IMG/VR virus record: IMGVR_UViG_3300042319_000547
Location: 1-25,665 of that record
Source: a virus
Direction: 5' to 3' (one strand)
Length of the DNA stretch: 25,665 nt
The notes under the pieces are model-generated. The model saw only the letters and a list, made by a program, of their open reading frames with translations. It ran no database searches and was not told the origin of the DNA. This document shows, piece by piece, positions 2,012 through 22,380 of this stretch. The translations under genes were made by a program, and so were the position numbers. Numbering within the stretch: position 1 is the first letter of the stretch; each line of letters opens with the position of its first letter.

Positions 2012-3220
2012 ATGACAGATAAAAACATAAGAACAGTTTGGTATTTTGGGTTAGAGCCACTTAAAGCTCGATACACATACCAATTATCAAAAGAATGGAT
2101 GCCCGCAACATTTGCTCCATATGAAAAAGCCGGAAAACTTAAGTTTATAGAAGTACCAGGAGAATTCGATCCGGATCAGCAAATTAAAGTTGGAGCTGTG
2201 TTAGATGCAGTCGGCCGCGGTAAATTTGCAATGAGTCAATGTAGCAACTTTTTAGATATGCTTAATATTGATCAAGTAAAAGACGGCGATGTCTTGTTTT
2301 TACAAGATTATTGGCATCCGGGTATTGAATCAATATTATATGCATTGGATCTATATGGTATCAATGTAAAAATATATGCAATGCTACATGCACAGTCAGT
2401 AGATGAATATGATTTTACTTGGCCTATGCGATCATGGATGCGTGGATTTGAGTTGGGACTTGATAATCGAATGGCCGGCATATTTGTTGGGTCATCAATC
2501 CATAAAGAACAATTGAGGGCAGCTGGATTCAAAGCTCCAATACATGTAGTATCATTGCCAATACATAAAGAAGCAACATTGAATAAATTGCCAAATTATT
2601 CAGATGCATCGGCGCATGGAATAGTTAAAAAGAAAGATACTATCGTGTATTCATCTCGGTTAGATAAAGAAAAGAACCCATTCTTCATGTTAAAAGTAGC
2701 AGAAGAATTCTTAAGTCAAAAACCAGATTTTGAATGGCACGTGACAACATCTGGAAAAGAATTTAGATCAATGTTACCTGGAGTAATTGATGCTATGTAT
2801 GAATTAGCAAAAAACCAACCTAGGTTCAAACTATTAAACGGACTTACGAAAGAAGAATATTATTTAGAATTAGCAACTTGTCGTATACAATTTAATACAT
2901 CATTACAAGACTATGTATCGTGGACCGTTATCGAAGCAACAGCATTCGGCGCCGATATTGTGTATCCAAATTTTAGATCCTTTCCAGAATTTATAGATGC
3001 TAACAGAATGTATAAACCATTTGATGTTCAATCAGCAATTGATACAATTCATGATGTATTAGATTCACCCAAAACACATTATGATATAGTTGATACATCA
3101 GATTTAGGTCGTAGAATGGAAGGATACATTATTGCCAATGACTATGATAAAGAATTATGCGTGTGGCATGAAAAAGAATATTGTACCCAATTATTAAACG
3201 AACAAGGAATACATGAGTAA
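2012..3220 (+). CDS. GT-B glycosyltransferase (GT4-like), 402 aa
   Basis: The protein has the two-domain layout of GT-B retaining transferases. An N-terminal acceptor domain (about 1-185) is followed by a nucleotide-sugar domain opening with Tyr-Ser-Ser-Arg-Leu-Asp-Lys-Glu-Lys-Asn-Pro (213-223), the usual place of the phosphate-contacting Arg and Lys. A late Val-Ile-Glu-Ala-Thr-Ala-Phe-Gly segment (Glu308) matches the donor-binding acidic motif, with another acidic residue near 326. It starts 5 nt after the QueD-like gene and overlaps the TGT-like gene by 8 nt, suggesting coupled translation. It sits outside the main glycan island, which raises the possibility that it modifies nucleic acid rather than a surface glycan. 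That is inference; donor and acceptor cannot be read. Confidence 0.8.
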   Translation: MTDKNIRTVWYFGLEPLKARYTYQLSKEWMPATFAPYEKAGKLKFIEVPGEFDPDQQIKVGAVLDAVGRGKFAMSQCSNFLDMLNIDQVKDGDVLFLQDYWHPGIESILYALDLYGINVKIYAMLHAQSVDEYDFTWPMRSWMRGFELGLDNRMAGIFVGSSIHKEQLRAAGFKAPIHVVSLPIHKEATLNKLPNYSDASAHGIVKKKDTIVYSSRLDKEKNPFFMLKVAEEFLSQKPDFEWHVTTSGKEFRSMLPGVIDAMYELAKNQPRFKLLNGLTKEEYYLELATCRIQFNTSLQDYVSWTVIEATAFGADIVYPNFRSFPEFIDANRMYKPFDVQSAIDTIHDVLDSPKTHYDIVDTSDLGRRMEGYIIANDYDKELCVWHEKEYCTQLLNEQGIHE

Positions 3221-4472
3221 TAAGAAAGAGTTTTTATATATACCGTCTCTATCAGCAGGATCGATGGTTTCTGCATTTAAGAAAGATACAAAATTTTCTG
3301 ATGGCACTACAATGCGGTTCTTCTCAAAAGAATATCCAGAAAAATGGCGACACCCATATTTCTTAGTAACTGCAGGGCATCATTACAAAAAAATGGATTT
3401 TAGAGATCAATTAGGATTAGATGATGGGACATTTGTATTCGGAGATTCGGGTGGATTCCAGATTGCAACGGGGGCATTGAAATGGGACGGCACAATCCGC
3501 GAAAAAATATTTCATTGGTTAGAGGCGAATAGTGATGTTGCAGCAAATTTAGATATACCGCCCCGAGTAACATTTGAGAATCGTTTCCAAGACGCAATGG
3601 ATATATCATTTGATAATTTTAAGTGGTTCGAAAAGAATCAAAGTGGTAAGACTAAATTTTTAAATGTAATACAAGGTACATTTACTGACGAATACTCTAT
3701 TTGGTATCATAAATTTAAAGACTTTGACTTTAATGGATGGTGCATTGGCGGTCCTAAAAAATTAGTAGACTTCATGTATGTTATTGCATTGATGTTAAAA
3801 GAACGAGAGTTCGAAAAGAAACATGTGCAGTATATACATTTACTAGGAATCAGTAAAATATCAGATTTCTTTATATTAGGAGTATTACAAAAATTATTAA
3901 ATACACTGACAGACAATCGAATTCAATTAATGTCAGATTCATCTTCCCCAGGGCAATATCCGGTATATGGAACATATTTACATTCGAGCAACTATAAGAC
4001 ACAGACATTTACTGAATTATATTTTCCAAAAAATGCTGAATACCGTCGTAAAACTCACGCTAAACAAGGTAAATCTGGATTTGTCGAAATTGATAAGACA
4101 AAACATGTTGTTTGTCAATTAGGCTGTCCGGCCTGTAATGATTTTACGTATGAATATTTAGGCGGAGAAACTACATCTGGTTTAGATCGGTATTCACAGG
4201 AAGGTATGCCACGAATGGTAGTGCATAATACACACGTATACTGCGAAATGGTAAAAGATATTAATCGGTTAACAGATAGCCATATAGAATTATTAGAAAC
4301 CGCAATACCGAATGATTTGTATACAGTCGTATTATCATTGTATGAAATGTTTGCAGATCCATCCAATGCAATGAATGTGTATGCATCATATAAAAAGACA
4401 TATAAAAAGTTTGGCGGCGATAGTATATCTACTACTGACGCCAACCAATTCAATAAATTCTTTAAATTTTAA
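3213..4472 (+). CDS. tRNA-guanine transglycosylase-like protein, candidate phage DpdA
   Basis: Hallmarks of the TGT superfamily appear in order: Asp-Ser-Gly-Gly-Phe-Gln at 78-83 (base-binding Asp), Asn-Leu-Asp-Ile-Pro-Pro at 112-117, Trp-Cys-Ile-Gly-Gly at 176-180 (TGT has Ala-Ile-Gly-Gly), Leu-Leu-Gly-Ile-Ser at 210-214, and Ser-Asp-Ser-Ser-Ser at 241-245, whose Asp242 is the likely nucleophile. A zinc site is formed by Cys301, Cys305 and Cys308 plus the His-Asn-Thr-His at 338-341. TGTs swap guanine for a 7-deazaguanine in tRNA; the phage paralogue DpdA does this in DNA. The 419-aa length is longer than bacterial TGT, and the spacing of the cysteines (C-x3-C-x2-C) differs from the usual C-x-C-x2-C. 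Family is near certain; DNA rather than tRNA as substrate is inferred from phage context. Confidence 0.85.
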   Translation: MSNKKEFLYIPSLSAGSMVSAFKKDTKFSDGTTMRFFSKEYPEKWRHPYFLVTAGHHYKKMDFRDQLGLDDGTFVFGDSGGFQIATGALKWDGTIREKIFHWLEANSDVAANLDIPPRVTFENRFQDAMDISFDNFKWFEKNQSGKTKFLNVIQGTFTDEYSIWYHKFKDFDFNGWCIGGPKKLVDFMYVIALMLKEREFEKKHVQYIHLLGISKISDFFILGVLQKLLNTLTDNRIQLMSDSSSPGQYPVYGTYLHSSNYKTQTFTELYFPKNAEYRRKTHAKQGKSGFVEIDKTKHVVCQLGCPACNDFTYEYLGGETTSGLDRYSQEGMPRMVVHNTHVYCEMVKDINRLTDSHIELLETAIPNDLYTVVLSLYEMFADPSNAMNVYASYKKTYKKFGGDSISTTDANQFNKFFKF

Positions 4473-12336: not shown

Positions 12337-12966
12337 ATGGCAGTAAAAATATCATATGCAATTACAGTTTGCCATGAGTTTATAGAAATACAACGTCTTG
12401 TTGCCTTCCTATTACAACACAAACGTACGGAAGATGAGATATGTATTTTGCTAGATAAACCAAAAGCATCTACCGAACTTCTGAATTTGCTTTATATTTG
12501 GTCATCTAAAGATTACATCCGCCTTAAGGAAAGTGCATTTCAAGGACACTTTGCTGATTGGAAAAACGAACTAACTAGAATGTGTACGGGGGATGTAATC
12601 GTTAACATAGATGCTGATGAACTTCCATCTGAAAAGCTGATAGAGGCTATTCCACACTTAGTACAAGAAAACCCAGATGTCGACGCAATGCTTGTTCCTA
12701 GAGTAAACACGGTAGCTGGTTTAACTTCAGATCATGTAGCAAATTGGGGCTGGCAAGTAACACCTGAGGGATGGATTAATTGGCCTGATATGCAGTGGCG
12801 GATTTATAAAAATTCTCCAGATATTAAATGGGTAAGTAAGGTTCACGAAAGGTTGGAAGGGTTTAAGACATATACGGCACTGCCAAGTGACCCTGCATTT
12901 GCTCTTTTTCACCCTAAGACCATAGACAAACAAGAACGACAAAACAGTTATTACGATACATTATGA
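12337..12966 (+). CDS. GT2-type (GT-A) glycosyltransferase, 209 aa
   Basis: The GT-A pattern is present: an N-terminal Ile-Thr-Val-Cys-His-Glu strand/loop, a helix and second strand leading to Leu-Leu-Asp-Lys-Pro, and the metal-binding Asp-Ala-Asp (92-94) in Val-Asn-Ile-Asp-Ala-Asp-Glu. A later His-Glu-Arg-Leu and His-Pro-Lys resemble the C-terminal base and acceptor region of waaE/KdtX-like family 2 enzymes. The length is short for GT2 (209 aa), but the stop couples as ATGA to the next gene, so it looks complete. Its base use is visibly richer in G+C than the following genes (25 of 60 bases in 12721-12780 by hand count), suggesting separate origin. Confidence 0.8.
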   Translation: MAVKISYAITVCHEFIEIQRLVAFLLQHKRTEDEICILLDKPKASTELLNLLYIWSSKDYIRLKESAFQGHFADWKNELTRMCTGDVIVNIDADELPSEKLIEAIPHLVQENPDVDAMLVPRVNTVAGLTSDHVANWGWQVTPEGWINWPDMQWRIYKNSPDIKWVSKVHERLEGFKTYTALPSDPAFALFHPKTIDKQERQNSYYDTL

Positions 12967-13823
12967 AAAAACGAGTATTAGTAACCGGAGGTGCTGGATT
13001 TATCGGTACAAATTTAATTAAATTACTGATCAGTAATAATTATGAGGTCATTTCAATTGATAATTATTTTACTGGAACTGTTACTAATCATGTACCCGGG
13101 GCTACATATATAAATCAAGATATTTTACAAATTTCGGATTTTTCAATATACGGAAAATTTGATGTAGTATTTCATTTAGCTGCAATTGCTAGAATTCAGC
13201 CATCATTTGATCAGCCGGTAGAATACTTTGAAAATAACGCAGTCGCTACTATGAAAATTGCAAAATTTTGTGTAGATACCAATACGCCATTAGTCTTTGC
13301 TGGATCTAGTTCGCATCATTCTGGTAAATTTAAGAATCCATATACATTTAGCAAAGATGTTGGAGAAGAAATAATTGATTTATTTCAACAACATTATAAT
13401 TTAAATGCATCCGTAGCTAGATTTTACAATGTATATGGCCCACATCATCTTAAAAACGGCGGATATTGTACTGTTATTGGGAAATGGGAAATGGCTATCG
13501 AAACGAAACAACCTATAATAATATACGGTGATGGAACTAAACGTAGAGATTTTACGCATGTTAATGATGTCGTATCTGCATTATTATTAATTTTTGAAAA
13601 AAATGCATGGAGTCATATTTTTGAAATTGGCACTGGTAAAAATTATTCTATAATAGAAATTGCAAATATGTTTAAATACAATTCAATTGTATATGAAGAT
13701 GATAAACCAGGAGAAGCAATTAATACTCTATGTGATTTTACTTTAGCTAAAAATGTATTGAATTGGGAATGTAAATTTAATATTAAAGATTATATTTTAA
13801 ACTATATAGGATCATATGAATGA
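12963..13823 (+). CDS. NAD-dependent sugar epimerase/dehydratase (extended SDR)
   Basis: The Rossmann motif Gly9-x-x-Gly12-x-x-Gly15 is followed by an acidic residue at the end of strand 2 (Asp33), which favours NAD. A His-Leu-Ala-Ala segment (71-74), Gly-Ser-Ser-Ser (114-117) and the catalytic Tyr127-x-x-x-Lys131 pair follow. The Arg-Phe-Tyr-Asn-Val-Tyr-Gly-Pro block is typical of UDP-glucose 4-epimerase-like SDRs acting on nucleotide sugars. The length of 286 aa is slightly short of GalE. It is coupled to the GT2 upstream (ATGA) and overlaps the next gene by 8 nt. It may make a precursor sugar for the NeuB/NeuA route or another donor; the precise sugar is unknown. Confidence 0.92.
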   Translation: MKKRVLVTGGAGFIGTNLIKLLISNNYEVISIDNYFTGTVTNHVPGATYINQDILQISDFSIYGKFDVVFHLAAIARIQPSFDQPVEYFENNAVATMKIAKFCVDTNTPLVFAGSSSHHSGKFKNPYTFSKDVGEEIIDLFQQHYNLNASVARFYNVYGPHHLKNGGYCTVIGKWEMAIETKQPIIIYGDGTKRRDFTHVNDVVSALLLIFEKNAWSHIFEIGTGKNYSIIEIANMFKYNSIVYEDDKPGEAINTLCDFTLAKNVLNWECKFNIKDYILNYIGSYE

Positions 13824-14772
13824 TAATTTAATTATATACGTATCGTCTCGAAATAATTATGATATGCTGAAAGGCGAAGTATTTAAAAACATTAATACTG
13901 AAAGATTTGAATTGATTAATGTAGATGATAATTCTTCTGCAGACGAAGTTGCAACAGGAAAACAATATTGTTCTGAAAATAACATAGTTTTTTTAGAAAA
14001 TAAAGACCGCGGGGTTCAAATGGCAACGCAAACATTAATTGATTTTATTAACGAGAACAGGCCGAATTGCAAATGGATAGTTTGTTTTCAACATGACATA
14101 TATCCAATTTCTGAAAATTTCTTTAAAACATTATCTGGATATATTTCAGAAGAAAAATTAAATGAATTTGGTATAGTTGGCTTCAATGTTTTAGATAATG
14201 GAGATTATACTAATGATTGTTTAGATAAGTTTAGTAGCGGCGAATCACCGCTAGGGATGATTGGAATGGCACATTTATCAATTCGATCGAATTCTGGAAG
14301 ATGGTTATGTCCTAAACAGCAAGATAAATTAATCAATTCAGGAAATTGGAATCAGCCATTTATTTCAGAATTTCCAATGTGGGCGGCAGTTGGCATCAAT
14401 GTGTCGTTATGGAATAAATATATCAAACCAACAAATGAATATCATTTTCATCTATGGTTACCGGATATTGCAATGCAGTTTAATTATTTAAATTTTCCAT
14501 GTTTAACTTTACCAAATTTGTATTGTTTAAATAATCAATTTTTAAAAGAAAAATATAATATTAATGCTAATTCCGCGACTGGTGCTAAATCAGGAAATGA
14601 ATACCACTTTGGTAAATATTCAAATTTTGATGCTTGGCGTTCTCGATGGGGATGGGATTATGAAAATACAAATACTTTTGAATCAATTAAACAAAGTTAC
14701 GATAACACGTTGATTGGTGAATATTATAAACACGATATACAAACAGGCCCATTAAGAAAATACGAATTATGA
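13816..14772 (+). CDS. GT-A-like glycosyltransferase, 318 aa
   Basis: The N-terminus has a GT2-like strand Ile-Tyr-Val-Ser-Ser-Arg-Asn, then Asn-Val-Asp-Asp-Asn-Ser-Ser (about 35-41). A Phe-Gln-His-Asp-Ile-Tyr-Pro segment near residue 95 stands where the metal-binding DxD would be. The remainder is aromatic (many Trp, Tyr, Phe), with a probable acceptor domain. It overlaps the SDR before by 8 nt and the SDR after by 4 nt (ATGA), so it belongs to the same transcript. The match is to the fold rather than to a named family, and the classic DxD is only partly kept. It is most likely a sugar transferase of the island, but a non-catalytic homologue cannot be ruled out. Confidence 0.6.
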   Translation: MNDNLIIYVSSRNNYDMLKGEVFKNINTERFELINVDDNSSADEVATGKQYCSENNIVFLENKDRGVQMATQTLIDFINENRPNCKWIVCFQHDIYPISENFFKTLSGYISEEKLNEFGIVGFNVLDNGDYTNDCLDKFSSGESPLGMIGMAHLSIRSNSGRWLCPKQQDKLINSGNWNQPFISEFPMWAAVGINVSLWNKYIKPTNEYHFHLWLPDIAMQFNYLNFPCLTLPNLYCLNNQFLKEKYNINANSATGAKSGNEYHFGKYSNFDAWRSRWGWDYENTNTFESIKQSYDNTLIGEYYKHDIQTGPLRKYEL

Positions 14773-15749
14773 AAATACTAGTAACAGGAGCTGCCGGGTT
14801 AATTGCAAGTCATTTAGTAGATTTTTTATTAGAGCAAGGACATATTGTAGTAGGACTAGATGATATGTCATACGGAAATATTGAAAATTTAAAAAATGCA
14901 CATCAAAATAAAAATTTTCACTTTAAGAAAACAAGAGTACAATTTTTGACTCTGCAGGAAGACAAATTTGATGTCATTTACCATTTAGCTTCAATGAAAA
15001 AGCCAGCAAATGGTATTATAAAGTCAGTTGATGTTTTAAAGGAAAATTATCAAATGATTGAAACAGTCGTTGCAGACGCAGTAAAGAATGGGTCATTTTT
15101 AATATTTACATCAACATCTGATGTATATGGTAATTCTGCAACATTTTTAGAATCAGAGGCAATTACTATCGGCCCGCCAACTAATGAACGATATTCATAT
15201 GCATTATCTAAATTATATGGAGAACAATTTATTTTTAATGAAATTCAACAATCGAATTTAAAGGGATGCGTAGTTAGAGTATTTGGGTGTGCTTCTTGGC
15301 GATCTAATAAAAGTTGGTCTGGTGGGCATGTTCCATTATTTGTGGATAGAGCTTTGAAAGGCGAATCAATTCATATTCATGGAGATGGAATGCAAACTAG
15401 ATCGATTAGTCACGCATTGGATATTGCCTGTGGTTTAAGTAAATTAATACAACATATTGATTCGGTCAATGGACAAATTATTAATTTTGGCACAAATGAA
15501 CAAACTACGGTACGAGCAGTTGCTGAATATATTATATCTAAAACTAATTCAAAATCTGAATTAATTTTTGATGGCCGAGAACAAGTATTTGGAAATTATA
15601 AAGAAATCATGAATCGATTTGCAAATACGACTAAAGCAAAAGACTTAATTAACTTTACGATAAATTATTCAACTTATCAAGTTATAGATGAAATAATCAA
15701 GGTATATAGTGATGAAAATAGCGGTTATTACTCCGGTACAGCACATTAA
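14769..15749 (+). CDS. NAD-dependent sugar epimerase/dehydratase (extended SDR), second copy
   Basis: The Rossmann motif reads Gly7-Ala-Ala-Gly10-Leu-Ile-Ala13, so the third glycine is replaced by alanine. Asp31-Asp32 end strand 2, and Tyr-His-Leu-Ala, Ser-Thr-Ser-Asp-Val-Tyr-Gly (115-121) and the catalytic Tyr144-x-x-x-Lys148 are all in place. Arg-Val-Phe-Gly and a His-Gly-Asp-Gly-x-Gln-x-Arg-Ser block follow, as in UDP-sugar epimerases and decarboxylases. It is 326 aa, typical of the family. It differs clearly from the SDR at 12963, so they probably act on different sugars. It overlaps the next gene by 38 nt, an unusually long overlap here. Confidence 0.9.
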   Translation: MKILVTGAAGLIASHLVDFLLEQGHIVVGLDDMSYGNIENLKNAHQNKNFHFKKTRVQFLTLQEDKFDVIYHLASMKKPANGIIKSVDVLKENYQMIETVVADAVKNGSFLIFTSTSDVYGNSATFLESEAITIGPPTNERYSYALSKLYGEQFIFNEIQQSNLKGCVVRVFGCASWRSNKSWSGGHVPLFVDRALKGESIHIHGDGMQTRSISHALDIACGLSKLIQHIDSVNGQIINFGTNEQTTVRAVAEYIISKTNSKSELIFDGREQVFGNYKEIMNRFANTTKAKDLINFTINYSTYQVIDEIIKVYSDENSGYYSGTAH

Positions 15750-16656
15750 TGGTGTATTAGACATATTACAAACAAAAGGAGATGTATTTTTAAACGAAAC
15801 TGCATCTAAATCTGAAGTTAGAGATCTTTTATTAAAAGAAAACATTGACACTATAATTTGTAATCCAAATCAACAGACATATAAAATTGACCATGAATTA
15901 TTAAATGGTACTAATGTAACATTAATTAATACATGTTCAACTGGCATGAATCATATCGATCAGGAATATTGTAATTCTAATAATATTAATATATATTCTT
16001 TAACTAAAGATTATAAATTGATAAAACAATTGCCGTCGACATCCGAATTAGCATTCGGATTGATGTTGTCATTATTAAGAAACATTCCAACTGCAAATCA
16101 ACACGTTTCTGAATATAAATGGGACTATACTAATTTTGTAGGCAGACAAGTTAAAGGATTAACGGTTGGTATAATTGGATATGGTCGTTTAGGAAAAATG
16201 ATGTTCGATTATTGTAATGCATTTGGAGCTAAGGTGAAGATTTATGATCCATATGAAAAACAAAATTTGTCAGATGCATTTTTATTAAATCATTATGCAA
16301 CATTGGAACATATGTTTGAAACATCTGATGTAATTTCATTGCACGTACATGTTACTAATGAAACTAAATATATGATAGATCGTAAGCTTCTTGGATTATG
16401 TAAAAATAGTCCTTATATTATAAATACATCGCGCGGAGAAATTGTACATGAACATGATATTGTTGATGCGCTAGATGCAAATTTAATAGCGGGATACGGA
16501 ACTGATGTTATAGAGAATGAATTTGATGATTTAACTAAGTCACCGATAATCATAGCAATGAATAATAAAAAAAATATAATAGTTACTCCGCATATTGGCG
16601 GAATGACTCATGAAGGACAAAAAAAGGCATATACATGGGCAGTAAACAAACTTTAA
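15712..16656 (+). CDS. D-isomer-specific 2-hydroxyacid dehydrogenase
   Basis: The NAD-binding motif Gly-Tyr-Gly-Arg-Leu-Gly (156-161) with Tyr-Asp-Pro after strand 2, then the catalytic triad Arg241 (Asn-Thr-Ser-Arg-Gly-Glu), Glu268 and His294 (Thr-Pro-His-Ile-Gly-Gly), mark this as a SerA/PdxB-like dehydrogenase of 314 aa. It would interconvert a 2-hydroxyacid and a 2-keto acid with NAD(H). The start is ATG at 15712; a GTG one codon earlier is less likely. It lies inside the sugar cluster, so it may make or remove a keto-acid substituent or precursor; this is inference. It overlaps the SDR before by 38 nt and the cytidylyltransferase after by 22 nt. Confidence 0.92.
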   Translation: MKIAVITPVQHINGVLDILQTKGDVFLNETASKSEVRDLLLKENIDTIICNPNQQTYKIDHELLNGTNVTLINTCSTGMNHIDQEYCNSNNINIYSLTKDYKLIKQLPSTSELAFGLMLSLLRNIPTANQHVSEYKWDYTNFVGRQVKGLTVGIIGYGRLGKMMFDYCNAFGAKVKIYDPYEKQNLSDAFLLNHYATLEHMFETSDVISLHVHVTNETKYMIDRKLLGLCKNSPYIINTSRGEIVHEHDIVDALDANLIAGYGTDVIENEFDDLTKSPIIIAMNNKKNIIVTPHIGGMTHEGQKKAYTWAVNKL

Positions 16657-17198
16657 AGGTATTAGTAATAATACCAACAAAATTAGATTCAACGAGACTT
16701 CAGAATAAAAATATTCAACAAATAAATGGAAAACCTATGGTTGAATATTCAATTGAATATGCAAAATCAAGTAAGTATAATCCTACAATTGTAGTTTCAT
16801 CAGAAAGTCCGCATGTATGGGATATTGCGTTGAAAAATGATGTATTATGGACTGCGAGGCCAGATCATCTTTTAAAAGATGCTGAAGTAACTGATGTGTA
16901 TATTGAGTTTTGTAGTAAAATTGAAGATGGACAGTATGATTTAGTTGTAGCATTACAGCCAGATAATCCAGATAGATCACATACATTAGACGAATGTATC
17001 GATTATATGATTTCAAATAATTATGATGATTTAATTACCGTTAATCCTTCATATAAACGAAGTGGGTCTGTTAGAGTGTTTAAATTTGAGTATTTAAAAA
17101 ATTCAATGGTTAGTAAAAGAATTGGGTGTATACAAGATGCTGCAACCGATATTCATTATTTAGATGATTTAAAACAAGTAGAACAAAAAATAGGTTAA
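16635..17198 (+). CDS. CMP-sugar synthetase (acylneuraminate cytidylyltransferase-like)
   Basis: The N-terminal nucleotide loop Ile-Pro-Thr-Lys-x-x-Ser-Thr-Arg-Leu-x-x-Lys-Asn (13-26) is the NeuA/KdsB signature, followed by Gly-Lys-Pro-Met-Val-Glu-Tyr-Ser-Ile. A Leu-Gln-Pro-Asp-Asn-Pro-Asp-Arg block (107-115) takes the place of the usual Leu-Gln-Pro-Thr-Ser-Pro-x-Arg. These enzymes activate sialic-acid-like sugars with CTP. At 187 aa it is shorter than bacterial NeuA (about 220-230), mostly at the C-terminus. The NeuB-type synthase lies just downstream, separated by a methyltransferase, strongly suggesting a shared nonulosonic acid pathway. The exact sugar is not known. Confidence 0.88.
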   Translation: MGSKQTLKVLVIIPTKLDSTRLQNKNIQQINGKPMVEYSIEYAKSSKYNPTIVVSSESPHVWDIALKNDVLWTARPDHLLKDAEVTDVYIEFCSKIEDGQYDLVVALQPDNPDRSHTLDECIDYMISNNYDDLITVNPSYKRSGSVRVFKFEYLKNSMVSKRIGCIQDAATDIHYLDDLKQVEQKIG

Positions 17199-17199
17199 T

Positions 17200-17787
17200 A
17201 TGGCAAAATTTGGAAAAGAACGGTTTCCATCCAATTATCAAAATGCAGTAGGAATGAACTCAAGTTCAACGTTACATGAAAATTCAAAAGAATTGGTTAA
17301 ACTACTTAAACAACATAATATTTTAAATTCCGAATCAAAGATCTTCGAGCTAGGATCAGGCCCTGGCAGAAATTTGCATTACATTAATGTCGAATTTAAA
17401 ACGAATAACATTTATTGTAGTGATCTATTTGCAGAATCATCTAAGAATAATATGTCTGAGTCAATAAAGAATATTATTACATTTTATGAAGGTGACTCAC
17501 AAGATATCATCGATAATAATATTATTGAAGATTTAGATTTGTTTTTAGTTTCAGATCATTTTATGCATTTACAATATGAAAAGGCCGATTATATTATCAA
17601 AATGATTTTAAAAAATTGGAATCCTAAATATATAATGTTACGCGAACTGAAAAAAGAATTTGAAACCCCAGACCATCCTAGACTATTTCATAATTATGAT
17701 CAGTTTTTACAAAAATATGATTTAATTTTAGAAACAACTAGCAGGCAAACTGATGCATATTTTATTTGGTTATTAAAAAGAAAATAA
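17200..17787 (+). CDS. Class I SAM-dependent methyltransferase
   Basis: Motif I, Phe-Glu-Leu-Gly-Ser-Gly-Pro-Gly-Arg, lies at 49-57, with a following strand ending in a Cys-Ser-Asp (motif II region) and a Gly-Asp-Ser-Gln-Asp stretch (motif III region). This identifies a Rossmann-type SAM methyltransferase of 195 aa. The N-terminus (about 1-30) is polar and may recognise the substrate. It lies between the CMP-sugar synthetase and the NeuB-type synthase with 1-nt gaps, so O- or N-methylation of the nonulosonic sugar or the growing glycan is a reasonable guess. DNA or protein methylation is less likely because no target-recognition domain is seen. Confidence 0.85.
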   Translation: MAKFGKERFPSNYQNAVGMNSSSTLHENSKELVKLLKQHNILNSESKIFELGSGPGRNLHYINVEFKTNNIYCSDLFAESSKNNMSESIKNIITFYEGDSQDIIDNNIIEDLDLFLVSDHFMHLQYEKADYIIKMILKNWNPKYIMLRELKKEFETPDHPRLFHNYDQFLQKYDLILETTSRQTDAYFIWLLKRK

Positions 17788-17788
17788 T

Positions 17789-18586
17789 ATGAGAATAATA
17801 GCAGAAATTGGTTGGAATCACTGCGGTGATATGAATCTAGCAAAAGAAATGATTAAAGCGGCTGCAGACAGTGGAGCTGATTACGCCAAATTTCAAACTT
17901 GGTCTGTTTCTAGATTAAAAACAGGTGATTGGGACAACGATGGTCGCCGGGAGATTTATGAGCATGCTGAATTAACAAAAGAGCGCCATGAAGAATTAAT
18001 TTCATATTGTAAAGAAATGAATATTTCATTCTTGTCATCAGTTTTTAGTACCGAAGATGCTAAACTATTAGTAGAATTAAAATGTAATTCAGTTAAAATA
18101 CCTAGTTTTGAATCTAGAAATATTGAGTTAATTAAATATTGCAATGACCATTTTGAAACCGTATTTATGTCAACGGGTACATCAACATTGGAAGAAATTA
18201 AATATAGTATAAGTTTCTTTAATAAAGCAACATTATATTTAATGCACTGTGTTTCCGTATATCCTGGAAAATATGAAATTGCAAATCTTCCAAAAATGAT
18301 TGCGTTAAAACAAGTACACAATTTAGTTGGATATAGCGATCATATCGAAGGAATTGAATCTGCTAAGATTGCATTAGGATTAGGCGCAGTTGTTATTGAA
18401 AAACATTTTACAATCGATAATAATCTTCCAGGCCGGGATAATAAGTTTGCAATACTTCCAAATGAATTACTTGGATTACGTAAATATATTAATTATATTC
18501 ATGATATGATGATAGATCATGGAACTAGTTATAATGAATTAGAATCTGATTCAAGAACGAATTATGCAGGTAGATTTAATGGATAA
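17789..18586 (+). CDS. NeuB-type nonulosonic acid synthase, lacking the SAF domain
   Basis: Conserved features of sialic/legionaminic/pseudaminic acid synthases are present: Ala-Glu-Ile-Gly-x-Asn-His-x-Gly (5-13), Lys-Phe-Gln-Thr (34-37), Lys-Ile-Pro-Ser (103-106), His-Cys-Val-Ser-Val-Tyr-Pro (153-159), Gly-Tyr-Ser-Asp-His (181-185) and Glu-Lys-His-Phe-Thr (204-208). The enzyme condenses phosphoenolpyruvate with a six-carbon amino sugar. Bacterial NeuB is about 340 aa with a C-terminal SAF (antifreeze-like) domain; this protein stops at 265, so the SAF domain is absent. In NeuB dimers that domain helps close the active site, so the phage form may be altered or may use another lid. The last 8 nt overlap the next gene. 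The catalytic TIM-barrel call is very secure. Confidence 0.93.
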   Translation: MRIIAEIGWNHCGDMNLAKEMIKAAADSGADYAKFQTWSVSRLKTGDWDNDGRREIYEHAELTKERHEELISYCKEMNISFLSSVFSTEDAKLLVELKCNSVKIPSFESRNIELIKYCNDHFETVFMSTGTSTLEEIKYSISFFNKATLYLMHCVSVYPGKYEIANLPKMIALKQVHNLVGYSDHIEGIESAKIALGLGAVVIEKHFTIDNNLPGRDNKFAILPNELLGLRKYINYIHDMMIDHGTSYNELESDSRTNYAGRFNG

Positions 18587-19220
18587 AATTTCAGTTATAA
18601 TTAGAACTCGCAATGAATCTGAATATATAGGTTTTGCAATTCAATCGGCTATTGATCATTTTAAAGATCCAGAAATTATCATTATGGATAATAATTCTAA
18701 TGATGATTCTATAGAAATTGTAAATTTATTTTCGCTTAAAACAAATATACAAGTATTCAATATTGATAACTATAGTCCCGGTAGATCTATTAATGAAGCA
18801 GTAAAACGATGTAATAATGATATTATTTTAATTTTATCTGCACATTCTCAGATTCATAAAATGGATTATGAATATGTCCAGTCTTGTTTAAAAAATCATG
18901 TAGCAGTATTTGGGAAACAAACTCCTATATACAGAGGTAAAAAAATAACACCTAGATATATTTGGAGTCATTTTGGAACTGAAGAAGTTACTAATTTATT
19001 TTCAATCATTGAAGATAGATACTTTTTACATAATGCATTTTGTTTTTATAGTAAAGAACATTTATTAAAATATCCATTTGATGAAAAACTAGTAGGCAAA
19101 GAAGATAGATATTGGGCTATTGATCAAGTTGAACTTGGATATTCATTTTTTTATACACCAAAAATAGAAATTAACCATTATTGGACCAACAATGGAGCAA
19201 CATGGAAAGGTTTAGCATGA
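18579..19220 (+). CDS. GT2-type glycosyltransferase, 213 aa
   Basis: A classic family 2 start, Val-Ile-Ile-Arg-Thr-Arg-Asn-Glu (6-13), is followed by Ile-Met-Asp-Asn-Asn-Ser-Asn-Asp-Asp-Ser. The position of the DxD carries Leu-Ser-Ala-His-Ser instead, as I recall for some rhamnosyl- and related GT2 proteins, so metal use may differ. A His-Asn-Ala-Phe segment and a late Glu-Asp-Arg-Tyr-Trp-Ala resemble the ED-x-D/acceptor region. The start is ATG at 18579, overlapping the NeuB-like stop by 8 nt; the upstream in-frame ATG at 18564 would add five residues. The stop couples as ATGA to the next gene. Confidence 0.85.
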   Translation: MDKISVIIRTRNESEYIGFAIQSAIDHFKDPEIIIMDNNSNDDSIEIVNLFSLKTNIQVFNIDNYSPGRSINEAVKRCNNDIILILSAHSQIHKMDYEYVQSCLKNHVAVFGKQTPIYRGKKITPRYIWSHFGTEEVTNLFSIIEDRYFLHNAFCFYSKEHLLKYPFDEKLVGKEDRYWAIDQVELGYSFFYTPKIEINHYWTNNGATWKGLA

Positions 19221-19930
19221 AATTAGCAGTTTATACAGCATTATTTACGGACAATCCGGATTATTTATATGGTGATCTTATACCATATGTACATGATAAA
19301 AATGGAATAGATTATATTGCATTTACTAATAGTGATTATTTAGAATCCAATTTTTGGGATGTACGTAAAATGGATATATGGAGATCTGGTCGATGGACCG
19401 CTAGAAAATGTAAAACATCTCCGGAAGAATTATTACCTGAATACGATGCCTGGTTGTGGATGGATAATGAAATTTATTTTACATACGACCCACATGATTT
19501 ATTTGCATTACATTTAAATGATTTTGATTTAGCAGTTCATGTTCATTGTGATCGAGATTGTATTTATCAAGAAGTAAATGAAACTATTGATAGAAACCCG
19601 CTGCGTGATCCTAAAGAAATGATTATTAATCAAGGAGTGGAGTACCAACAACAAGGATACCCAAAAAATACTGGTTTATATGAAAATGGTATATTATATC
19701 GACGAAACACTGAATTAATAAGAAATTTCAATAAAACGTGGTTTGAAGAAACTGCAAAATGGAATACTGAAGATCAAATTTCAATGATGTATGCATTATG
19801 GAAATATCCAGCTGTTACCGTTAATGCCTTAAAACAAACATTTGTTTCGCATAACTATAAAAACACGTATTTACCATTAACAGATCAATTTAAATGTTTG
19901 CCTAGATCGAATCGATATGTTAAAAAGTAA
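19217..19930 (+). CDS. DUF616/TOD1-MUCI70-like glycosyltransferase, 237 aa
   Basis: The arrangement Tyr-Thr-Ala-Leu-Phe at the start, then Asp-Ile-Trp-Arg-Ser-Gly-Arg-Trp-Thr-Ala-Arg-Lys (53-64), Asp-Ala-Trp-Leu-Trp-Met-Asp-Asn-Glu-Ile (77-86) and Asp-Pro-His-Asp-Leu (91-95) fits the DUF616 pattern known from plant TOD1/MUCI70 proteins and bacterial homologues. A His-Cys-Asp-Arg-Asp-Cys-Ile-Tyr-Gln-Glu block matches the conserved His-Pro-x-Arg-x-Cys-x-Tyr-x-Glu. The Trp-Met-Asp-Asn-Glu is the likely DxD equivalent. The start is ATG at 19217 (ATGA with the gene before), giving 237 aa; a longer frame from 19181 would run through that gene. Substrates are unknown. Confidence 0.7.
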   Translation: MKLAVYTALFTDNPDYLYGDLIPYVHDKNGIDYIAFTNSDYLESNFWDVRKMDIWRSGRWTARKCKTSPEELLPEYDAWLWMDNEIYFTYDPHDLFALHLNDFDLAVHVHCDRDCIYQEVNETIDRNPLRDPKEMIINQGVEYQQQGYPKNTGLYENGILYRRNTELIRNFNKTWFEETAKWNTEDQISMMYALWKYPAVTVNALKQTFVSHNYKNTYLPLTDQFKCLPRSNRYVKK

Positions 19931-20933
19931 AATATTATTATTATTTACAAATCATAGAGTTGCTGAAAAACTATGGCCTATTATACCGCGGTTGGCCGAT
20001 GAATATGAAATTGATTTATTTTGTGTTGGTCTATTTAGTTTACATACCCCATGGATTGGCGATATTGATGAACGTATTATTGCAATCAATAAATATAAAC
20101 GGTATTTTAGTAATATAATTCAAGGACCTGGAATAAAATTTCATGGTGATAAAATACAACACTCATTGCTAGATTTTATTAATTTAAATTCGTATAAGTT
20201 TGTAATTTATGATGACAATCGAGAAATGCAAGAATTTAAAATTCCAGATTTTTATAATGAATGCAAACACAGAAATATTAAAGTAATTGGTAATGTACAT
20301 GGCAATGAAGATGTTACGATAGATGCATCGGGTATTAGTTATGATTTTAAATTAGAATTTCACACCGGCGGAATTCCTGCGAATGATACATTAGCTAATG
20401 TAGTAGTTCAGCCCAGTCATATATTAGTTATAACCAATTACCTAGGCAATCGTGAATCTATATTTCCTATTAATTTCGATCAACATTTTGTTTATGAATC
20501 TGGAATTTTAGAATTATCTAAACATTTTAACTTACCAATAAAAGTAAAAATAAAAACAAGACTTGATAAACCAGATTTTATTAATGATATTTCATATGTA
20601 AATAATCTATTAGACTGCGAAGTTATAACAAATTCAGAAAATATTGATAATGTAATAGCCAATTCTGCTGTAGTTATATCAGCCCCATCTACATTATCAT
20701 TTAAGTCGATTCAATTAGGAATTCCGACAGTATTGATTAAAGGGTGTGGACAAATTGGTAAATTCGATTCATATGCAGGATTAGTAGATCTAAGTAAACA
20801 ACAAATATTTGATTCTATTCAACATCAAATTGATTGTGGTAAATTTAATGAATATATACAAAATACCATCGCAGGTGGCCTTGAATTTAATTCATCGCAA
20901 AAATATGTTAACTATATAAAAACAATGTTATGA
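19917..20933 (+). CDS. Putative GT-B-fold glycan protein, 338 aa
   Basis: The protein looks like a GT-B fold. An N-terminal strand Ile-Leu-Leu-Leu-Phe-Thr-Asn-His is followed by Ile-Pro-Arg-Leu-Ala, a middle Gly-Asn-Val-His-Gly-Asn, and a late Ser-Ala-Pro-Ser-Thr-Leu-Ser-Phe-Lys-Ser-Ile-Gln-Leu-Gly-Ile-Pro-Thr-Val-Leu. That last block resembles the donor-site segment of capsule and teichoic-acid glycosyltransferases, where Ser/Ala-Pro-Ser-Thr precedes a Glu or Lys helix. I cannot place it in a named family, and no E-x7-E motif is present. The start at 19917 overlaps the DUF616-like gene by 14 nt and the ATGA at 20930 couples it to the next. It belongs to the island by position; enzyme activity is probable but unproven. 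Confidence 0.6.
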   Translation: MLKSKILLLFTNHRVAEKLWPIIPRLADEYEIDLFCVGLFSLHTPWIGDIDERIIAINKYKRYFSNIIQGPGIKFHGDKIQHSLLDFINLNSYKFVIYDDNREMQEFKIPDFYNECKHRNIKVIGNVHGNEDVTIDASGISYDFKLEFHTGGIPANDTLANVVVQPSHILVITNYLGNRESIFPINFDQHFVYESGILELSKHFNLPIKVKIKTRLDKPDFINDISYVNNLLDCEVITNSENIDNVIANSAVVISAPSTLSFKSIQLGIPTVLIKGCGQIGKFDSYAGLVDLSKQQIFDSIQHQIDCGKFNEYIQNTIAGGLEFNSSQKYVNYIKTML

Positions 20934-21619
20934 AAATAATATACAGAATATCAGACACTGGTTATAAAAAAGAAAAACCAGATTACATAGACAACGAAAC
21001 GTGTTTAGCTAATGCTATTAAAGTGTTCCACAATGTAGAATGGTCTATTATAGCAGACAATTGTAGCAAAGAAACATTGAACATGATTACTAAATATGTT
21101 CATCCTAATAAAATAACTACAGTGTCAGTAGGGCATGGAGCTGGTACATTTAATTTAGCATTAGATGAAGCACTCGAATACAGTGATGATGATATAGTTT
21201 ACTTTATAGAAAATGATTATCTACACAAACCAGAATCCGTAAAAATACTAAAAGAAGGATTCGAATTGGGAGCTTCATTTGTTGCATTGTATGATCATCC
21301 AGATAAATACCTAGACCCGAGTAACGGAGGTAATCCATATAGTGCCGGGGGAGCGGAAGATACCCGAGTTTATTTAACTGACAGTTGTCATTGGAAAGTT
21401 ACTAATTCAACAACAATGACATTTGCAGCAAAGGTATCCACATTAAAACGAGTAGAACCGATACTAAGAAAACATACATCGGGTACGCACCCAGATGACT
21501 TCCAAATGTTTTTGGAACTAAGACAACAAGGAGAATTATTAATAACACCTTTACCAGGATATGCAACACATGGCGAAACTGCGTGGTTATCTCCTTTAAC
21601 AGATTGGAGCAAAGTATGA
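20930..21619 (+). CDS. GT-A-like glycosyltransferase, 229 aa
   Basis: The start Ile-Tyr-Arg-Ile-Ser-Asp-Thr-Gly-Tyr and the Asn-Glu-Thr-Cys-Leu-Ala-Asn-Ala-Ile helix are typical of a small group of GT-A-like proteins in phages and bacteria. Tyr-Phe-Ile-Glu-Asn-Asp-Tyr-Leu-His (91-99) carries the likely acidic metal site (Glu94, Asp96). His-Pro-Asp-Asp-Phe-Gln later in the protein may contact the acceptor. The length is short for a GT-A enzyme but complete, with ATGA junctions on both sides. Its base use is richer in G+C than the genes from 12963 to 20933, and the same holds for the next gene, so the two may be a separate acquisition. Donor and acceptor are not known. Confidence 0.7.
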   Translation: MKIIYRISDTGYKKEKPDYIDNETCLANAIKVFHNVEWSIIADNCSKETLNMITKYVHPNKITTVSVGHGAGTFNLALDEALEYSDDDIVYFIENDYLHKPESVKILKEGFELGASFVALYDHPDKYLDPSNGGNPYSAGGAEDTRVYLTDSCHWKVTNSTTMTFAAKVSTLKRVEPILRKHTSGTHPDDFQMFLELRQQGELLITPLPGYATHGETAWLSPLTDWSKV

Positions 21620-22380
21620 TATCAGTAATTATCCCAACATATAAAAGTCCAGAAATGCTCGATCTATGTTTACGATCAGCAATCGAAGGACAAACAAATA
21701 AAAATCAGATCATAGTTGTAGTAGATGGGTTCTATGACTTAAATAAAGAGGTCTTAGACCGATGGACAGGCTCTATTGATATACTGAACCTACCGACCAA
21801 TCAAGGTCTTTGTAGGGGCACTAATTTGGGGGTGTACAATGCCAGATACGATAAGATACTCATTGTTAATGATGACAACATATTTCCAAAATTTTGGGAT
21901 GATAATCTAGAGTTAAACTGTATTGATGGTGCTGTAATTTCTCCTAATCAAATCGAACCCAGTCCAAGCATGTTCCCTCAGTTCCACATAAAGGATCTAG
22001 GAAAATCAATTAATTTATTTGATTTACCCCGATTTCAGGAATATGAAAAAGATTTAAATACAGTAACATATAAAAAAGTACCTGAAGAAACCGGCTCTAC
22101 GCTCCCAATATTTATGTCTAAAACAGATTATTTAAGAGTAGGTGGGTGGGATGAAAATTACGAACATGGTATGGTCGCAGATTGGGACTTCTTTTTAAAA
22201 TGCCAACTTTCAGGACTTAAAATGATTAGAACCTATAATTGCCATTTTTACCATTTTGCTTCAGTTTCAGTGAATGGAGAAAAAAGGCGGCGATCGGAGA
22301 TTGCTGGTCATGAATATGCAAAATATAAATGGGGTGCTTATATTAAACATGATCCGGCTAACAACCTAAAGTTCATATAA
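21616..22380 (+). CDS. GT2-type glycosyltransferase, 254 aa
   Basis: This is a canonical family 2 protein: Val-Ile-Ile-Pro-Thr-Tyr (4-9), Val-Val-Val-Asp-Gly (35-39), Asn-Gln-Gly-Leu-Cys-Arg-Gly-Thr-Asn, and the metal-binding Val-Asn-Asp-Asp-Asn-Ile-Phe-Pro (DxD). A Gly-Gly-Trp-Asp-Glu segment followed by Asp-Trp-Asp-Phe-Phe resembles the usual C-terminal Gly-Gly-Phe-Asp-Glu and Glu-Asp-x-Asp pair. The start is ATG at 21616, which overlaps the previous stop by 4 nt (ATGA); an upstream frame from 21583 would overlap by 37 nt. It is the last gene of the glycan island. A 67-nt AT-rich gap with a candidate promoter separates it from the lysis cassette. Inverting chemistry is expected from the family. 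Confidence 0.92.
   Translation: MISVIIPTYKSPEMLDLCLRSAIEGQTNKNQIIVVVDGFYDLNKEVLDRWTGSIDILNLPTNQGLCRGTNLGVYNARYDKILIVNDDNIFPKFWDDNLELNCIDGAVISPNQIEPSPSMFPQFHIKDLGKSINLFDLPRFQEYEKDLNTVTYKKVPEETGSTLPIFMSKTDYLRVGGWDENYEHGMVADWDFFLKCQLSGLKMIRTYNCHFYHFASVSVNGEKRRRSEIAGHEYAKYKWGAYIKHDPANNLKFI

Follow-up and report, generated by a model that had tools for sequence, protein, structure and literature searches.

NeuB-family enzymes and DAHP synthases catalyze one type of reaction, the condensation of phosphoenolpyruvate (PEP) with an aldose to a 3-deoxy-2-ulosonic acid, and DAHP synthase-type enzymes yield 7-carbon acids in known pathways. Among phages, the phage-encoded EpaA and EpaB in Acinetobacter baumannii act on a nonulosonic acid (PMC12053666), and the hypervariable region of pelagimyophages contains many glycosyltransferase genes as well as sugar-nucleotide genes, which have been read as host O-chain modification genes (Zaragoza-Solas et al. 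2020, PMC7029224); genes for sialic or neuraminic acid are not mentioned in the main text of the latter paper. Here, we analyzed IMG/VR virus record IMGVR_UViG_3300042319_000547 over its full length of 25,665 bp (the window), a sequence from a marine bacterial virus. Besides a long island of glycosyltransferase genes, it encodes a sliding clamp and a clamp loader of the T4 replication type. The core of a mobile phage cassette appears to consist of a D-2-hydroxyacid dehydrogenase (2HADH), a short cytidylyltransferase, a NeuB-family synthase without the SAF domain and a glycosyltransferase of family 2 (GT2). Gene content, catalytic residues, folds, adjacency, synthase exchange and purifying selection are observations; the chemistry, the sequence of steps, the product and its target we infer: the cassette probably makes a 3-deoxy-2-ulosonic acid, activates it with CMP and transfers it.

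The cassette resembles the NeuB/NeuA, PseI/PseF and LegI/LegF pathways in that a NeuB-family synthase, with its core residues kept, and an enzyme of the CMP-ulosonate synthetase fold are encoded in one operon. It differs from them in its SAF-less NeuB, which scores below the equivalog cut-offs, in its short cytidylyltransferase with a DxH motif, in the lack of NeuC, Pse and Leg partners in the window, and in its dedicated 2HADH, the coupling of GT2 to the synthase and the exchange of the synthase for a DAHP synthase-like enzyme. This enzyme, found in the NeuB slot of sister phages, is reminiscent of KdsA/KdsB (Kdo) and AroG/AroF-type systems, and the cytidylyltransferase is also KdsB-like. Unlike AroG/AroF-type DAHP synthases, however, the phage proteins score below the family cut-off, have a KPCT motif and lie in a sugar cassette rather than beside shikimate genes. 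The Leptospira NeuB (PDB 6ncs, 290 aa) is the best PDB match of the window NeuB (165.8 bits) and is seemingly also too short for a SAF domain. The window protein shares the NeuB barrel with it and with Bacillus SpsE (1vli), but both fall on other tree branches, and SpsG-type partner genes were not found in the window. The island follows the pattern described for the T4-like marine pelagimyophages (PMC7029224), and in contrast to EpaA/EpaB, the enzymes for synthesis and activation are themselves phage-borne in the cassette.

A conserved cassette with an exchangeable synthase slot

Eight genes occupy positions 12963-19220 of the plus strand in the order SDR1 (short-chain dehydrogenase/reductase), a 318-aa gene, SDR2, 2HADH, cytidylyltransferase, methyltransferase-like gene, NeuB and GT2, each overlapping its neighbor or separated from it by 1 nt (intergenic spacings of the run, -4, -8, -4, -38, -22, +1, +1 and -23 nt). 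An earlier note, made from the letters of the window, had listed two SDRs, a 2-hydroxyacid dehydrogenase, a CMP-sugar synthetase, a methyltransferase and a NeuB in one coupled run; all were found in place, on this strand and with profile matches (weak for the methyltransferase), and the neighbors indeed overlap or abut (spacings of -38 to +1 nt). The 318-aa gene between the SDRs and the GT2 gene (18564-19220), a member of the conserved unit, were missing from that list.

Relatives with the same cluster, which the earlier note had suggested looking for, were recovered by scanning viral sequences with a 2HADH alignment. The same 2HADH family was present in 55 viral contigs (44 to 100% identity), with a cytidylyltransferase nearby in 52; the three misses were contig ends, so the association held for 52/52 untruncated contigs. 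The synthase slot contained a SAF-less NeuB in 43/55 contigs and a DAHP synthase-like enzyme in 9/55, while both were found together in none. Neither synthase was present in 3/55 (L153, L173 and L185), all of them truncated records, and every intact slot held exactly one synthase kind. The GT2 gene of the same kind followed the cassette in 46/55 sister loci. The window, with its 2HADH, cytidylyltransferase, one PEP-condensing synthase and GT2, belongs to this cassette type. SDR1 was found in 36/55 sister loci, the 318-aa gene in 33/55, SDR2 in 27/55 and the methyltransferase gene in 13/55. The idea of the earlier note that the SDRs might do the work of NeuC gains little from this pattern, as both SDRs come and go while 2HADH, CMP synthetase, synthase and GT2 stay.

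The DAHP synthase-like proteins of the nine loci are 268 to 281 aa long, and the gene order is rearranged in one of these loci (L149). Three of them were tested against the NCBIfam DAHP synthase model (TIGR01361) and scored 215 to 235 bits, below the equivalog cut-off of 268; a PDB profile search also placed them with DAHP synthase. The KPRT motif of DAHP synthase, implicated in erythrose-4-phosphate binding, is replaced by KPCT in 9/9 proteins. A scan from the DAHP synthase side returned 15 loci, with a cytidylyltransferase in 15/15 and a 2HADH in 14/15. Because the two synthase types share this PEP-aldose condensation, their exchange at one position fits a synthase role, and this exchange, between the cytidylyltransferase and the same GT2, constitutes the best available evidence that the slot may produce an ulosonic acid that would later be activated and transferred. 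The presence of a DAHP synthase-like enzyme in the NeuB slot also means that the term nonulosonic is not secured, since the product could have 7, 8 or 9 carbons.

The genes of the run are under purifying selection across divergent phages, with dN/dS values of 0.04 to 0.09 for NeuB, 0.09 to 0.15 for the cytidylyltransferase, 0.16 to 0.28 for 2HADH and 0.06 to 0.15 for the 318-aa gene. These low values indicate that the cassette genes are not decaying fragments. They also bear on the possibility that the run is passenger DNA, captured host surface-polysaccharide genes without a selected phage function. The GC content of the cassette (0.296) is below that of the remainder of the window (0.337 and 0.324), and the closest relatives from cells belong to sugar loci of marine bacteria, both of which would fit such an origin. 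However, the strong purifying selection, the gene order kept across dozens of phage contigs of 13 kb to 548 kb in which the synthase is interchangeable, and the phage-specific short form of the cytidylyltransferase already disfavor this explanation, and we regard it as very improbable. Promoter and terminator scans yielded no more sites than shuffled sequence.

The core enzymes

The 265-aa product of the gene at 17789..18586 (+) is predicted to be a SAF-less NeuB-family PEP-condensing (3-deoxy-2-ulosonate) synthase. It matches PF03102 over the full domain (204 bits, cut-off 22.1; model positions 1-236 of 241). When aligned to N. meningitidis NeuB (NmNeuB, 1xuu), residues E6, K34, K103, S183, H185 and H206, invariant in 18 relatives, corresponded to E25, K53, K129, S213, H215 and H236 of NmNeuB, which are PEP and metal ligands, and the positions matching Q55, Y186 and D247 were likewise invariant. 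The protein ends where the C-terminal SAF domain would start, and no SAF match was obtained in the Pfam scan. Among the relatives, the residue aligned with NmNeuB N74 varies, and Arg314 of the SAF domain, the N-acetyl-contacting residue of NmNeuB, has no counterpart. The best NCBIfam match was TIGR03569 (N-acetylneuraminate synthase) with 207.8 bits, below the cut-off of 399.65 and covering the model only to position 270 of 329; TIGR03586 (pseudaminic acid synthase) gave 172.3 bits (cut-off 340.25). In a tree of 121 sequences (quick search, no bootstrap), 39 SAF-less NeuBs (19 from phages and 20 labeled cellular, mostly SAR11/SAR86) formed one clade with an SH-aLRT value of 96, or 99 once the most divergent member was removed, set apart from NmNeuB, CjPseI, SpsE and Leptospira 6ncs. 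The profile and tree placement proposed in the earlier note thus puts the protein in the ulosonate synthase family PF03102 and in a separate SAF-less clade, not in the reference sialic or pseudaminic acid lineages.

These results can be set against a conventional sialic, legionaminic or pseudaminic acid-type pathway, in which ManNAc or a diacetamido sugar would come from the host or the SDRs and NeuB and NeuA would act as usual. The folds of NeuB and the CMP synthetase and the TIGR03569 match agree with such a pathway, as does a Flavobacteriales genome in which NeuB-NeuC-NeuA (NeuC, TIGR03568, 409 bits, above the cut-off) is followed by a relative of the cassette 2HADH, a gene order that ties this 2HADH group to a nonulosonic pathway there. 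The NeuB of the window, however, scores far under the equivalog cut-offs, groups outside the reference lineages, lacks the SAF domain, has a variable N74 position among its relatives and sits in a slot that a DAHP synthase-like enzyme can occupy, while conservation of the core does not extend to the SDRs. No NeuC match was obtained among the genes scanned in the window, a 25.7-kb fragment of the phage, and no PseB/C/G/H, Leg enzyme or PseC/LegC-type aminotransferase was found among the window genes tested; the missing aminotransferase speaks further against a conventional pathway, which we consider unlikely. The earlier note had read the run as a full route to a CMP-activated nonulosonic (sialic-acid-like) sugar. 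A PEP-dependent synthase and an enzyme of the CMP-ulosonate synthetase fold are indeed present, but the completeness of the route and the nonulosonic identity of its product are not borne out, the latter in view of the subthreshold Neu5Ac and Pse scores, the missing SAF domain, the position outside the NmNeuB, CjPseI and SpsE lineages and the swappable slot.

Other NeuBs were encountered outside the cassette. Two phages from the annotated collection, LR756508 (484 kb; L110) and MH319754 (L111), encode NeuBs that are SAF-less too, on another tree branch and with other neighbors; since these are short yet placed elsewhere in the tree, the SAF domain was probably lost more than once. The IMG/VR loci L279, L285-L288, L291-L293 and L295-L296 encode NeuBs of 311 to 353 aa, approximately the length of SAF-bearing enzymes, with a cytidylyltransferase nearby in several, and appear to represent more conventional nonulosonic acid genes on contigs called viral.

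The cytidylyltransferase gene (16635..17198, +) encodes a short protein of the CMP-ulosonate synthetase fold (PF02348, CTP_transf_3, 60.8 bits, cut-off 22.6). With 187 aa compared to approximately 220 to 250 aa for NeuA/KdsB, it is about 50 residues shorter, and the D-I-D of NeuA (DxD metal motif) is D-I-H in 16/16 short phage relatives aligned, with His in place of the second Asp. An AlphaFold model computed from a 16-sequence alignment had a pLDDT of 90.6, and the best 41 PDB matches in Foldseek were all CMP-NeuAc, CMP-Kdn, CMP-Kdo or CMP-Pse synthetases or annotated relatives (for 6ifd, TM 0.85 of the query). Because the family is under purifying selection, the short enzyme is probably functional.

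The 2HADH gene (15712..16656, +; PF02826, 2-Hacid_dh_C, 163 bits) encodes a protein in which the residues equivalent to catalytic Arg241, Glu270 and His294 are invariant in 16 relatives. A profile of the family scored 234 to 335 bits for cassette members in cells versus 106 to 136 bits for generic 2HADHs. On these sequence comparisons, the cassette 2HADH forms a family of its own that is linked to the cytidylyltransferase. Few bacteria have it: it was found in 4/397 genomes of a SAR11 family sample, in 1/369 sampled from the class to which the SAR86 genome belongs, in 1/199 from the phylum that includes the Acidobacteria genome and in 1/298 from the order of the Flavobacteriaceae genome; the query genome is counted among the matches in the SAR11, SAR86-class and Acidobacteria-phylum samples. 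In some loci, other enzymes stand in for the dedicated 2HADH, namely, an enolase-superfamily acid-sugar dehydratase together with a different 2HADH in the NeuB loci L017 (2253-4159), L236, L229 and L030 and an Ldh_2-type dehydrogenase inside the unit in SAR11 locus L053. As these substitute families act on sugar or hydroxy acids, the pathway probably includes a 2-oxo/2-hydroxy-acid step. One of these contigs, L030 (NZIO01000013, 11.9 kb, labeled Pelagibacter MED605), has the gene content of a phage-type island and probably represents phage sequence that was binned into a metagenome-assembled genome of SAR11.

In SAR86 and SAR11 genomes, surface-sugar loci contain the same unit with a different gene order. 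In a SAR11-family genome (L125:9279-11006, minus strand), the cassette 2HADH is fused to a cytidylyltransferase that is PseF-like, next to an O-antigen transferase of the LIC12162 family, and a phage protein (L149:6532-7785) consists of an N-terminal GT2 domain fused to the cassette cytidylyltransferase. Both fusions agree with ulosonate activation and transfer. The link between 2HADH and the cytidylyltransferase would also suit another product, in which 2HADH would reduce the 2-keto-3-deoxy acid from the synthase and the resulting 2-hydroxy acid would be activated by the short cytidylyltransferase. Their association in 52/52 untruncated loci, the SAR11 fusion, the shortened cytidylyltransferase with its altered metal motif and the sugar- or hydroxy-acid families that replace 2HADH in L017, L236, L229, L030 and L053 are compatible with this scheme. 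The full-length PseF/NeuA-like cytidylyltransferases encoded in the same neighborhood in L023, L031, L125 and L206 suggest instead an ordinary CMP-ulosonate, and we consider a hydroxy-acid product rather improbable.

The last core gene (18564..19220, +; PF00535, 62 bits) overlaps neuB by 23 nt and encodes a GT2-family protein of the GT-A fold. Its AlphaFold model (pLDDT 91.4) matched generic GT2 enzymes in Foldseek, with no pointer to donor specificity. From its gene linkage, it is a probable ulosonate transferase.

Proposed pathway and points against it

We propose as most likely that NeuB would condense PEP with an aldose to a 3-deoxy-2-ulosonic acid, that the cytidylyltransferase would convert this acid to a CMP-sugar and that GT2 would transfer it to a glycan. 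Either the acceptor sugar acid or the product may be the substrate on which 2HADH carries out a redox step between 2-oxo and 2-hydroxy acid. Exchangeable tailoring functions would be provided by the SDRs, the 318-aa protein and the methyltransferase, and the starting sugar would come from the host. The glycan probably decorates virion proteins or the surface of the infected cell; virion masking or a change of the host surface, suggested in the earlier note, would be possible roles. In a 159.6-kb relative, a simple Kyte-Doolittle scan found no protein with at least 5 hydrophobic segments and thus no apparent flippase or polymerase, which mildly favors transfer in the cytoplasm; the acceptors could be virion proteins, lipid-linked sugars or core sugars.

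Several points weigh against synthesis, CMP activation and transfer of an ulosonic acid by the cassette. We know of no nonulosonic acid or Kdo pathway with a 2HADH, and to our knowledge, known sialyltransferases are not GT2 enzymes; assigning the transfer step to GT2 is a guess from gene linkage. No source of the acceptor aldose is encoded in obvious form. The approximately 50 residues absent from the cytidylyltransferase include dimer and sugar contacts in NeuA, and because of this shortening and the His in place of the second DxD Asp, the enzyme could be inactive on ulosonates or take another substrate. In addition, several viral contigs are near-identical, so the locus counts overestimate the number of independent cases. 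Clustering at 95% protein identity leaves 41 NeuB, 48 2HADH and 14 DAHP synthase-like clusters, which indicates that the cassette pattern does not stem from one clone. Separately, a 217-aa protein on a 173-kb phage contig (L169:7339-7989), by eye a transaldolase or fructose-6-phosphate aldolase, is encoded directly upstream of 2HADH and is a possible source of the acceptor aldose.

Neighboring genes, distribution and significance

The remaining genes of the run are accessory. SDR1 (12963..13823, +) belongs to the NAD-dependent nucleotide-sugar epimerase/dehydratase family (PF01370, Epimerase, 147 bits; phrog_540), and SDR2 (14769..15749, +) is an extended SDR of the sugar epimerase/dehydratase family (PF01370, 125 bits). 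The conserved 318-aa protein (13816..14772, +), possibly a glycosyltransferase, had no Pfam, NCBIfam or PHROG matches. The gene at 17200..17787 (+) encodes a SAM-methyltransferase-like protein with weak matches to TehB (20.0 bits, cut-off 20.4) and BioC (24 bits). Downstream, a run of glycosyltransferase-like genes (19211..22380, +; spacings of -10, -14, -4 and -37 nt) encodes a TOD1/MUCI70-like protein (19211-19930, +), a 338-aa protein with no family named (19917-20933, +), a GT2-like protein (20930-21619, +) and a protein that is GT2-like by eye (21583-22380, +); these probably build the remainder of the glycan. Elsewhere in the window, positions 1244-1669 encode an RfaE-like nucleotidyltransferase (phrog_7878, heptose 1-phosphate adenylyltransferase type; PF01467), a further sugar-activation gene, and positions 3213-4472 encode a 419-aa protein with a subthreshold tRNA-guanine transglycosylase match (PF01702, 22.7 bits, cut-off 26.3), which may be a DpdA-like enzyme that modifies DNA with deazaguanine.

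The earlier note had called a full route to such a sugar unusual in a phage, and among annotated phages, NeuB-family genes are rare. Searching 50,697 annotated phage records by tblastn with the window NeuB, a Campylobacter NeuB-family protein and a Campylobacter PseI-like protein returned the same three records for each query. Two are true phages; the third, FPLJ01000048, is a Moritella viscosa contig and was discarded. PHROGs contained no family matching NeuB or the cytidylyltransferase, and the cassette was not reported in the open-access literature searched. In IMG/VR, SAF-less NeuB was present in dozens of contigs of up to 548 kb. The cassette synthase is therefore unusual in described phages and common in unisolated ones. 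For the T4-type major capsid protein of the sister contig of 159.6 kb, the nearest relatives are those of Flavobacterium phage immuto (56%), a Microcystis phage and a 484-kb huge phage, rather than that of a pelagiphage, a difference from the pelagimyophages. The nearest cellular NeuBs are those of SAR11/SAR86, but given this capsid protein affiliation, we do not claim a SAR11 host.

More tentatively, and with somewhat less than even confidence, we suggest that an undescribed ulosonic acid pathway with a standing 2HADH and a modular PEP step is shared by marine phages with a few bacteria, SAR11 and SAR86 among them. Its products would be new acidic sugars, a family varying in chain length, that are attached by a GT2-type transferase. 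The exchange of NeuB for a DAHP synthase-like enzyme would provide a rare direct handle on the function of an orphan pathway and predicts differing chain lengths. The dedicated 2HADH, which one SAR11 genome encodes as a fusion with the cytidylyltransferase, would mark a new biochemical step that is open to assay. Widespread in environmental phages, with dozens of contigs of up to 548 kb, the cassette is nearly absent from annotated phage genomes. If the proposed pathway is true, these phages would bring enzymes to make and attach an acidic sugar of their own, going beyond the borrowing or tweaking of sialic-acid-like sugars of the host.

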